Source of the DNA: a virus
IMG/VR virus record: IMGVR_UViG_3300009537_000064
Location: 1 to 39,129 of that record
Length of the DNA: 39,129 nt
Direction: 5' to 3' (one strand)
A program made the position numbers and the translations under genes. The notes below the pieces were generated by a model. That model was not told where the DNA came from, made no database searches, and was given only the letters and a program-made list of their open reading frames with translations. Shown here in pieces: positions 4,638-10,981 of the stretch (position 1 is the first letter of the stretch; every line of letters starts with the position of its first letter).

Positions 4638-5078
4638 ATGCCCCACATTGCCAAGCGTTATCACGATATTTGTGCAGGACACCGTGTTTATGGACACGAA
4701 AACAAATGCTCTAACGCACACGGACACAACTATCGCATTCATTTTACTTGCGAATCTGCTGGGCTCGACTCAGTTGGTCGGGTCATTGACTTCTCTGTTA
4801 TGAAGTCTCTTTTATGCAATTGGCTCGAAGATAACTGGGACCACAAGTTTCTTCTTTGGGAAGGAGATCCCTGGATTCAGCCGATGAATGCATTGGACCC
4901 CGAAGGTCTTGTCATTCTTCCAGTCAACCCAACTGCCGAAAATCTGGCCGAATACTTAGTCAATGTCATTGGCCCATCTCAGCTGGATGGTACTGGAATT
5001 GTCCTAACTGAAGTTAACATTGAGGAAACTCGCAAGTGTTCGGCGGCGTATTCTAAGCCGACTCGTTCATCCCCTTAA
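4638..5078 (+). CDS. queD: 6-carboxytetrahydropterin synthase (QueD-like)
   Basis: The product belongs to the 6-pyruvoyl-tetrahydropterin synthase/QueD family, which converts dihydroneopterin triphosphate to 6-carboxytetrahydropterin in 7-deazaguanine (preQ0) synthesis. At 146 residues it has about the usual length. Visible residues include the zinc histidines H15, H28 and H30, the catalytic Cys24 in C-x3-HGHNY, an Asp68-His69 pair (NWDHKFLLW), and the C-terminal glutamate near E130 (VNIEETRK). It starts at ATG 4638 behind GAGGA. No queE, queC, folE or base-insertion gene is in this window, so its role, in tRNA queuosine or in 7-deazaguanine DNA modification, depends on genes outside or in the host. 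The stop codon lies inside a 16-bp palindrome. Confidence 0.9.
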   Translation: MPHIAKRYHDICAGHRVYGHENKCSNAHGHNYRIHFTCESAGLDSVGRVIDFSVMKSLLCNWLEDNWDHKFLLWEGDPWIQPMNALDPEGLVILPVNPTAENLAEYLVNVIGPSQLDGTGIVLTEVNIEETRKCSAAYSKPTRSSP

Positions 5079-7778: not shown

Positions 7779-7976
7779 ATGGTTGAAGAAGAATCTGGCT
7801 GTAAGAAAGACACAGATGAAAGTGCGCTTGAATTCGCTCGCAGAGATAGCCTGGAATTTTGTGTTCGTGACATCATCGATTCGCTTAAAGAATTAGAGGA
7901 AAAAAATTCCGCTTCGCAACCGCCACCAGAATCTTGGATCCATCGGATAGGACGAAAACTTATAAATACTAACTGA
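7779..7976 (+). CDS. Small acidic hypothetical protein, 65 aa
   Basis: Sixty-five residues, acidic at the N-terminus (MVEEESG) with a helical middle (FCVRDIIDSLKELEEK) and a Pro-rich stretch before a short basic end. No family is recognised. The ATG at 7779 begins 4 bp after the ligase stop; an in-frame ATG at 7731 would overlap the ligase by 44 bp and is less likely. A late-type promoter box for the next gene lies inside its 3' end. Confidence 0.5.
   Translation: MVEEESGCKKDTDESALEFARRDSLEFCVRDIIDSLKELEEKNSASQPPPESWIHRIGRKLINTN
7961..7968 (+). promoter_or_regulatory. T4-late-type promoter box (TATAAATA)
   Basis: An exact TATAAATA inside the end of the preceding gene, 16 bp before the ATG of the FmdB-like gene at 7985. 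The predicted start site would leave a leader of about 10 nt. Confidence 0.55.
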
Positions 7977-9142: not shown

Positions 9143-9817
9143 ATGACAAATACATTCAATCACGCATTAATAAAAATTCCAGAAATTTCAGCACACACCC
9201 AAGACAACGGGAAACGTTTCTATCGCACGCCTGAGGGGAAAATGTACCCCTCAGTAACAACTGTGTTATCCCTTCATAACAAAGAGGGGCTAGCACAGTG
9301 GCGTGCGCGAGTTGGTAATGACGAGGCCAACAAAATTTCTAGGCAGGCTGCAACCAGAGGAACCCGCATCCACAATATTGTTGAGAGGTATCTAAACAAC
9401 AATGGTGTAAAGGAAGGCCTCACTCCATTGGATCTGGCCAGTTTCATTTCTCTGCAAACGCACTTATCAAGAATTGACAATATTCGAGGATTGGAAGTCG
9501 GATTGTATTCAGACTTCTTGCGTTTGGCGGGCCGTGTTGATTGCGTTGCCGACTTCGATGGCAAGCTGAGTATTATCGACTTCAAAACTGCCAAACGCAG
9601 AAAGGACAAGGAGTATATCGAACATTACTTTATGCAAACAAGCGCATATGCCATTATGTTCGAAGAAAGAACAGGCATACCGATTGGCCGAACAGTAATT
9701 CTCATTTCGGTTGATGATGATGACTCGCAGGTCTTTATTGAAAAGCGGGACAACTATGATAAGAAGCTAATTGAGTACCGGGACCTGTGGGAGAGTATAA
9801 ATAAGAATGCAGGATGA
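9143..9817 (+). CDS. PD-(D/E)XK nuclease, RecB/Cas4-like exonuclease
   Basis: A 224-residue nuclease with the RecB-like PD-(D/E)XK arrangement: RGTRIHNIVE (H77, the QxxxY-upstream helix region), GLEVGL (E118), GRVDCVA (D133), IDFKTAK (D146, K148) and a helix with QTSAYA, the Q-x-x-x-Y motif. These are the metal-binding and catalytic residues of the family. T4-like phages of aquatic hosts often encode such an exonuclease; a role in recombination or host DNA degradation is inferred. Translation appears leaderless: the ATG falls at the predicted transcription start with no ribosome site. Its 3' end carries an exact late-type promoter box (9796-9803) that points into the tmRNA. Confidence 0.85.
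   Translation: MTNTFNHALIKIPEISAHTQDNGKRFYRTPEGKMYPSVTTVLSLHNKEGLAQWRARVGNDEANKISRQAATRGTRIHNIVERYLNNNGVKEGLTPLDLASFISLQTHLSRIDNIRGLEVGLYSDFLRLAGRVDCVADFDGKLSIIDFKTAKRRKDKEYIEHYFMQTSAYAIMFEERTGIPIGRTVILISVDDDDSQVFIEKRDNYDKKLIEYRDLWESINKNAG
9796..9803 (+). promoter_or_regulatory. T4-late-type promoter box upstream of the tmRNA
   Basis: An exact TATAAATA inside the 3' end of the nuclease gene. T4 late transcripts start a few bases after this box, so a pre-tmRNA would start near 9810, about 30 nt before the first P2 strand. It is the only good promoter match I see between the nuclease start and the tmRNA. Confidence 0.55.
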
Positions 9818-9819
9818 TA

Positions 9820-10063
9820 GTACAATGCCTCAACTGAAGATTAGCTTGGACGGGGGTTCGACTCCCCCCATCTCCACTTAGAAGTAAAAAAAAATATTTT
9901 GGGGGTGCTTGGTTTCGACAGGTTAGTGTATAGGGAGAGGATCTATCCGATAGGCGACTGCCGTAAGCAGAGCAAAAACATCAAATGCCAACTTTAATCA
10001 GGCATACGCTCTAGCCGCGTAAAGCGCAGAGCCGGGTTTATGAACCTGGGAACAGAATCATAC
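9820..10063 (+). ncRNA. ssrA: Circularly permuted (two-piece) tmRNA
   Basis: A transfer-messenger RNA, which rescues stalled ribosomes and tags the nascent peptide. The acceptor half comes first: T-arm GGGGG/CCCCC (9852-9856/9864-9868) with loop TTCGACT, then CATCTCC (9869-9875) and discriminator A9876. The coding half starts with GGGGGTG at 9901-9907, which pairs with CATCTCC over 7 bp and includes the alanine-specific G3-U70 wobble. GGTTTCGACAGG at 9911-9922 is the tmRNA D-region signature. P2 pairs 9919-9927 with 9840-9848 (9 bp with wobbles). The tag ORF is at 9972-10022, with its stop in the loop of P5 (10008-10012/10028-10032). CCA is not encoded. The 24-nt A-rich segment 9877-9900 would be removed. 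The 5' end is approximate. Confidence 0.88.
9972..10022 (+). other. tmRNA proteolysis-tag reading frame
   Basis: Read from GCA 9972 the tag is AKTSNANFNQAYALAA followed by TAA at 10020-10022. The last four residues are the classic ALAA degron seen by ClpXP-type proteases. A second possible resume codon is GCC at 9987, giving ANFNQAYALAA; both are in the same frame. The stem CTGC/GCAG (9958-9961/9967-9970) just before the frame occupies the place of pseudoknot PK1. Confidence 0.75.
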
Positions 10064-10089
10064 CTAAAGCCCCCGCAAGGGGGTTTTAG
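10064..10089 (+). terminator. Intrinsic terminator of the tmRNA
   Basis: An 11-bp stem (10064-10074 with 10079-10089), GCAA tetraloop and TTTT in its right arm. It lies directly after the last tmRNA helix (hairpin 10032-10049) and before the next promoter. Confidence 0.85.
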
Positions 10090-10093
10090 TGTA

Positions 10094-10101
10094 GATAAAT
10101 A
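10094..10101 (+). promoter_or_regulatory. T4-late-type promoter box (GATAAATA)
   Basis: A one-mismatch match to TATAAATA just after the tmRNA terminator and 86 bp before the SleB-like gene. A consensus early promoter lies between it and the gene. Confidence 0.35.
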
Positions 10102-10112
10102 TATCATAACTG

Positions 10113-10141
10113 TTGACAACACAACGAAAACAGTGTATATT
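10113..10141 (+). promoter_or_regulatory. Sigma70-type early promoter
   Basis: TTGACA at 10113-10118, a 17-bp spacer and TATATT at 10136-10141. It would transcribe the SleB-like hydrolase, gp33 and gp59, which overlap one another. Confidence 0.85.
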
Positions 10142-10179
10142 TAAAGAGTACAGATAACATCTTCAAAAAGAGAGGAAAT

Positions 10180-10701
10180 ATGAAGATAGCTAGTGTTTTC
10201 CTCGTAATGGTTGTATTGTTACACTTTTCAATGACAGACAATAAACCCCTTACTCTGCAATACGGAAAACAGGATAGCGTTCTTTCCATCAGAGACACAA
10301 TTGATACAACGGCAGTAAACAAAGAATTGAATTGTATGGCACAGAACATCTATTACGAATCGGGATCAGAACCATATGAAGGTAAGTTGGCTGTTGCAAC
10401 AGTAACAATGAACAGAGTTAAAAGCAGGTCGTTCCCGCAAACGGTTTGTGAGGTAGTGTTTCAAAGAAATCCCAGGGGGTGTCAGTTCTCTTGGGTCTGC
10501 GAGAAGAATCGCCGGGCACCAAACCAAAAGTTGTTTGCCGAAGCAAATAGAATCGCACTGGAAGTTTTACAATCTAACAAAAGATTGCACTCTATTGGCA
10601 ATGCAATGTTTTTTCACAATATGACAGTCAAGCCGACTTGGAGCTTAACTATGACGCCAATCAAAAAAATCGGAGGCCACATTTTCTATGTCCTCAGCTA
10701 A
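10180..10701 (+). CDS. SleB-type cell wall hydrolase with an N-terminal signal
   Basis: A 173-residue protein with a hydrophobic N-terminal segment (about residues 4-17, SVFLVMVVLLHFS) that acts as a signal or signal-anchor, then a cell wall hydrolase domain of the SleB/Hydrolase_2 family from about residue 50. Family motifs visible are the NIYYES motif with Glu60 as the probable catalytic acid, EGKLAVATVTMNRV, and the GCQFSWVC region followed by a NAMFFHN segment near the end. Such enzymes cleave peptidoglycan glycan strands. The signal-anchor suggests a phage endolysin exported by the host Sec system, but this is inference. GAGGA lies before the ATG. The 3' end overlaps gp33 by 14 bp. Confidence 0.85.
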   Translation: MKIASVFLVMVVLLHFSMTDNKPLTLQYGKQDSVLSIRDTIDTTAVNKELNCMAQNIYYESGSEPYEGKLAVATVTMNRVKSRSFPQTVCEVVFQRNPRGCQFSWVCEKNRRAPNQKLFAEANRIALEVLQSNKRLHSIGNAMFFHNMTVKPTWSLTMTPIKKIGGHIFYVLS

Positions 10702-10981
10702 CGTACAGCCCGACAGTCTAGACGACCCCAGAATATTCACAGTCGAATATTTGATAACTCGCAAATTTCAAACACCGGAAGAGTTTTCTATATTCATAGA
10801 GTCTGATGCAAGACGGCGCAACTTGGGTTATTTAGAAGCATTACTAGATTATTGTGATAACCAAAACATTGAGCCAATTGCAATTTCCAATTTGATTTCA
10901 CCTTCGCTCAAAGACAAGATTCAAGCTGAAGCGGAAGACTTAAACCTTCTCAAACGAAAAAAGGGTAAACTACCAATATGA
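10688..10981 (+). CDS. 33: gp33-like late transcription coactivator
   Basis: A 97-residue protein matching T4 gp33 in size (112), acidic and helical character and position next to gp59 and gp32. In T4, gp33 bridges the sliding clamp (gp45) and RNA polymerase bound by gp55 to activate late promoters. Visible features are a helix-rich body (FSIFIESDARRRNLGYLEALLDYC) and a basic end (LLKRKKGKLPI). The ATGA overlap with the next gene at 10978 implies coupling. The assignment rests mainly on sequence feel and synteny, so confidence is moderate to high. Its presence supports the TATAAATA boxes in this window being functional. Confidence 0.8.
   Translation: MSSANVQPDSLDDPRIFTVEYLITRKFQTPEEFSIFIESDARRRNLGYLEALLDYCDNQNIEPIAISNLISPSLKDKIQAEAEDLNLLKRKKGKLPI

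Follow-up and report, generated by a model that had tools for sequence, protein, structure and literature searches.

A circularly permuted tmRNA preceded by a conserved late-promoter motif in a T4-like phage

The window, by which is meant the whole 39,129 nt stretch of viral DNA analysed herein, encodes PhoH, an exonuclease, an endolysin, a gp33-like coactivator, a gp59 loader, gp32 and a DNA end protector, alongside baseplate wedge and hub families of T4 type. An earlier note had ascribed the DNA to a T4-like phage, and gp32, gp33, gp59, PhoH and the T4-type baseplate genes bear this out. Elsewhere in the window, a QueD-like 6-pyruvoyl-tetrahydropterin synthase (4638–5078) hints that the phage may have a pathway for queuosine-type modification of DNA or tRNA, and short ORFs with internal repeats (DDSFFDSEIHPVI repeated; a TAKKTAKK run) are located at 984–1597 and 1802–2083, upstream of the conserved block. 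Within the PhoH–exonuclease–tmRNA–(hydrolase)–gp33–gp59–gp32 gene order conserved amongst relatives, a complete permuted tmRNA occupies approximately 9809–10065 on the plus strand, with the following features in and around it.

9143–9817, plus strand: exonuclease (phrog_298), the upstream neighbour here and in relatives
9796–9803, plus strand: T4-type late promoter TATAAATA, exact consensus, with a predicted start at about G9809
9809–9839, plus strand: 5′ leader with the 5′ portion of the acceptor piece (Rfam structure)
9816–9820 with 9942–9946, plus strand: outer pairing, GATAG with CTATC (Rfam structure)
9840–9848, plus strand: P2 5′ strand, pairing with 9919–9927 (9 bp in the MFE fold)
9852–9868, plus strand: T-arm, GGGGG-TTCGACT-CCCCC (Rfam structure)
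9869–9876, plus strand: acceptor 3′ strand CATCTCC (C9869–C9875) and discriminator A9876 (Rfam structure)
9877–9900, plus strand: intervening segment of 24 nt between the two acceptor strands, of varying length and sequence amongst relatives
9901–9907, plus strand: acceptor 5′ strand GGGGGTG (G9901–G9907), with 97.6 % of cells paired across 24 sequences
9911–9921, plus strand: conserved GGTTTCGACAG of the tRNA-like domain (Rfam structure, conserved alignment columns)
9919–9927, plus strand: P2 3′ strand (MFE fold, covariation)
9987–10022, plus strand: tag frame, from resume codon GCC 9987 through ANFNQAYALAA to stop TAA 10020–10022
10008–10032, plus strand: possible P5-like stem around the stop codon (window MFE fold only)
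10036–10064, plus strand: 3′ hairpin with conserved loop ACCTGGGAACAGAA (beta_tmRNA model)
10065–10088, plus strand: terminator-like hairpin AAAGCCCCC-GCAA-GGGGGTTTT (sequence reading and beta_tmRNA alignment)
10180–10701, plus strand: endolysin/cell-wall hydrolase, the downstream neighbour
10688–10981, plus strand: gp33-like late transcription coactivator (phrog_254, E-value 3.2e-20)

The circularly permuted tmRNA proposed in the earlier note was upheld by the covariance-model search suggested there, an Rfam cmscan in which two models matched at full length and above their gathering cut-offs. RF04321 (tmRNA_permuted) aligns to 9816–10022 on the plus strand with 126.4 bits (E-value 1.5e-24; cut-off 47), placing the acceptor half before the tag half as had been read from the sequence, and RF01850 (beta_tmRNA) aligns to 9762–10088 with 96.6 bits (E-value 2.8e-28; cut-off 84). 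The beta subtype scores best amongst the alpha, beta and cyano models, and its match survives clan competition. Whilst an RNA at 9820–10063 is thereby confirmed, its ends require amendment, with transcription probably beginning near G9809 and stopping at the 10065–10088 hairpin. As for the intrinsic terminator claimed previously, a G+C-rich, terminator-like hairpin is present, but a strict terminator scan did not call it. ARAGORN also calls a tmRNA at this locus, parsed as 9787–10235 with a tag of VDNTTKTVYI; this tag was rejected, as it is located beyond the terminator-like hairpin and is without an ALAA end.

Structurally, the acceptor stem comprises the seven pairs expected, with G9903–U9873 as the equivalent of G3–U70 and one further G-U pair, as is borne out by the Rfam structure and by covariation. 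The 9 bp P2, which includes three G-U pairs, is likewise recovered in the MFE fold and displays changes on both sides amongst relatives. The outer stem appears as GGUAG/CUACC in relatives, a G-C to A-U replacement in which both sides have changed, and the stem of the 3′ hairpin is similarly altered on both sides. The P5 described as enclosing the stop codon does fold in the window, but it was not recovered in the clade consensus fold. No CCA is encoded, with CTT following discriminator A9876; its absence is ordinary, since a complete CCA is likewise missing from 58 of the 66 betaproteobacterial host genes sampled, and it was for this reason rejected as a peculiarity of the clade. The segment at 9877–9900 would be expected to be cut out to leave two pieces, because it sits between the acceptor strands and is variable in relatives.

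Comparison of 24 distinct phage copies reveals that 14 of the 21 acceptor, T-arm and P2 pairs have changed on both sides: eight of nine in P2, three of five in the T-arm (where pairing is 100 % retained) and three of seven in the acceptor stem. In total 75 cells are changed on both sides, against 22.9 for shuffled alignments (0 of 500); the covariation score of 0.424 compares with 0.134 for the shuffles (0 of 500) and 0.07–0.11 with the helices slid. The reading frame displays equivalent constancy. The tag, ANFNQAYALAA, closes with a degradation signal of ClpXP type, followed by a stop codon, and within the clade of the window tags of 11–16 residues differ by whole codons, such that the frame and the ALAA end persist through indels of 12 and 15 nt. 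This end is found in 22 of 23 members; the exception, L263 (10823–11122), is intact as far as the tag and then continues into unrelated sequence, and is either a broken gene or a misassembly. Amongst unique phage tags of the first set, 24 of 25 end in LAA and one in MAA. Judged by these patterns, 9809–10065 is an RNA under selection, with chance excluded, because pairs have changed on both sides in phage copies and the tag frame and ALAA end have been kept through indels. The same conservation bears on whether the RNA might be a decoy or inhibitor, competing with host tmRNA or SmpB and performing no trans-translation. There is precedent, as the tmRNA of phage DS6A, which is without a tag frame, inhibits that of E. 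coli (PMC11915505), yet a decoy has need of neither tag frame, resume region nor ALAA, all of which are conserved here, and we consider this reading highly unlikely.

With regard to transcription, the T4 late promoter element is positioned at about −13 to −6, and the predicted start at approximately G9809 follows from this spacing and the TATAAATA at 9796–9803. A scan of IMG/VR with the conserved tmRNA start, from which pattern the promoter was left out, returned 40 contigs (31 distinct). In 30 of the 31 distinct loci NATAAATA is found 4–5 nt before the predicted start region, at −13/−12 of the conserved GTAGGATGGTAGTA, whilst the background frequency of ATAAATA in those loci is 2.3e-4 per base and strand. 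The sequence farther upstream of NATAAATA falls into several unrelated contexts amongst the distinct loci, so the tmRNA and the promoter element travel together. In a separate clade (L109, L110 and L113), TATAAATA precedes the start region of that clade by 4 nt. The window as a whole contains six copies of TATAAATA against 1.74 expected (0 of 100 shuffles), and those at 7961, 16653 (minus strand), 17158 and 27118 are, by position, upstream of genes too. Since a conserved T4-type late promoter precedes the tmRNA, expression late in infection is suggested, with promoter activity judged from the motif. The promoter could instead serve the downstream genes, the tmRNA being simply first in the transcript. 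A conserved late promoter before a phage tmRNA is unreported in the literature searched, and is a useful addition to what is known of phage permuted tmRNAs.

Of the 50 records searched, made up of relatives found through gp32 and three named phages, 31 carry the RNA. Thirty records span both exonuclease and gp33, and in 25 of them, some of which are near copies, the RNA lies between the two genes; the remaining five have no RNA in that interval, and it is therefore not essential in all. A 190 kb contig (G041, the contig of L075) harbours a tmRNA at 166967–167230, approximately 100 kb from the exonuclease–gp33 slot, with gp32 near 66800.

When 72 permuted tmRNAs were placed in a tree, the window sequence fell within a phage-only clade of 13 rows (support 100/100), and the alphaproteobacterial genes form one separate clade. 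Beta-type phage and betaproteobacterial host genes are intermixed with no firm resolution, the sampled beta host genes nesting among phage genes in a tree weakened by long branches, by an alignment of 209 columns and by midpoint rooting. Constraining all phage genes to one clade is not rejected (p-AU 0.083, or 0.146 when pelagiphages are omitted), and neither this tree nor the p-AU tests settle whether movement was from host to phage or from phage to host. Only 3 of 60 genomes sampled from the betaproteobacterial order passed the cut-off, and with respect to the phage host the beta-type match may be read as only a hint. Beta-type permuted tmRNAs, in each case unannotated as such, were also detected in the Acinetobacter phages BUCT628 (MZ593728; L004:2969–3183) and vB_AbaM_3098 (L249:2507–2723), and in Stenotrophomonas phage Moby (L250:2481–2747), whose gammaproteobacterial hosts possess a one-piece ssrA of their own. 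A further unannotated example adjoins the tRNA gene cluster of the N4-like Alcaligenes phage vB_Af_QDWS595 (Schitoviridae; L251:2486–2739), and a beta-type permuted tmRNA scoring 166.7 bits occurs in a genome, L141 (NZ_BDAC01000014.1), titled Pseudomonas indica NBRC 103045 and possibly a mislabelled or mixed assembly. Speculatively, the beta-type permuted tmRNA might be an RNA long carried by phages, which passes from host to host, works even in those with a one-piece ssrA (Acinetobacter, Stenotrophomonas) and is the source of the scattered betaproteobacterial permuted ssrA genes, although we hold this to be rather unlikely.

tmRNA genes are common integration sites, and this, together with the broken 3′ part of the L263 relative, might suggest that the locus has no function in the phage, being either a host gene that was captured recently or is decaying, or what is left of a prophage attachment. 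Compensatory changes, a maintained frame, a promoter motif of its own, a phage-only clade and a fixed position among T4-like replication genes all run counter to such an origin, which we regard as extremely improbable and, on the covariation, as refuted in the main.

What the analysis shows is the tmRNA architecture with its covariation and intact tag, together with the conservation of both the slot and the late-promoter motif; transcription, cleavage, charging, tagging and benefit are all steps that we infer. The reading that we consider probable is that the locus is a functional permuted phage ssrA, inherited within a T4-like lineage and transcribed late, whose ribosome rescue spares ribosomes during virion synthesis. 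Late in infection, phage-modified RNA polymerase (of gp55/gp33 type) would start at about G9809 and read to the 10065–10088 hairpin, whereupon host RNase P and 3′-processing enzymes would excise 9877–9900, leaving two pieces that P2, along with the acceptor and outer stems, would hold together. CCA would be added by the host nucleotidyltransferase and alanine charged by host AlaRS via G3–U70, after which host SmpB and EF-Tu would deliver the tmRNA to ribosomes halted by broken or non-stop mRNA. A ribosome so engaged would resume at GCC 9987, add ANFNQAYALAA, terminate and be freed, with the tagged product marked for ClpXP-type proteases. The benefit would be a continued supply of free ribosomes while virions are being made in bulk late in infection and damaged mRNA is plentiful. 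A search for an SmpB encoded by the phages themselves found none in 23 records, amongst them the 39 kb window fragment and several exceeding 100 kb, although it detected SmpB in 10 of 14 control genomes; the RNA would therefore be expected to function with the SmpB of its host.

Ribosome rescue during infection, one of two roles raised in the earlier note, thus stands as the most likely one. The other, proteolytic control, is less likely as the main purpose. It would have the phage mark host proteins, or phage proteins made in surplus, for degradation, so as to recycle amino acids or switch phases, as put forward for the OM43 (Methylophilales) phage Melnitz (PMC9004378), and the strict retention of the ALAA degradation end fits. 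Ribosome rescue predicts that conservation equally, however, whilst a late promoter is ill-suited to an early host-takeover role and tmRNA targets stalled ribosomes as opposed to chosen host proteins, making proteolysis an unlikely main purpose. The findings show that selection has maintained a complete ribosome-rescue RNA as an enduring component of one T4-like phage lineage. Late transcription would give it a concrete, testable timing, unlike the published idea of early infection.

Permuted tmRNAs are already known in phages, and the window adds one more. A count from 2022 found 133 unique tmRNA structures in 402 phages, 53 of them two-piece and 50 of these from marine or aquatic samples (PMC9004378); counting all forms, a tmRNA database holds 79 unique phage sequences (PMC11915505). 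No report of experiments on a phage-encoded permuted tmRNA was found in the freely available literature searched. The unusualness claimed in the earlier note was overrated, as permuted tmRNAs of aquatic T4-like phages, also adjoining gp33, were published in 2022 (PMC9004378), and that of Mosig is annotated. Melnitz provides a close parallel, being an aquatic T4-like phage with a two-piece tmRNA directly upstream of its gp33-type coactivator gene (PMC9004378). Its ssrA is described as of alphaproteobacterial type, tied to a glutamine riboswitch and behind an early promoter, from which its authors guessed at an early role (PMC9004378); the window, by contrast, scores best as beta type and carries a late-promoter motif, and Rfam found no riboswitch in it. 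The Pelagibacter phages Mosig EXVC030M (MT647606) and HTVC008M (KC465899) harbour ssrA in the same slot, from exonuclease to gp33, annotated in Mosig and unannotated in the deposited record of HTVC008M (145161–145370; L252:2662–2871). Unlike the window, both are alpha type by Rfam with no NATAAATA found within 80 nt upstream, and Mosig encodes CCA. The timing of tmRNA expression may therefore differ between phage groups, given that Melnitz has an early promoter and that no late element was found in Mosig and HTVC008M. The best subtype match for the window is the chromosomal tmRNA of Betaproteobacteria (RF01850; Azonexus, Thauera, Dechloromonas), with which it shares the two halves, P2, the 3′ hairpin and a CCA that is mostly un-encoded, and from which it differs in its own tag and sequence and in its membership of a phage-only clade.
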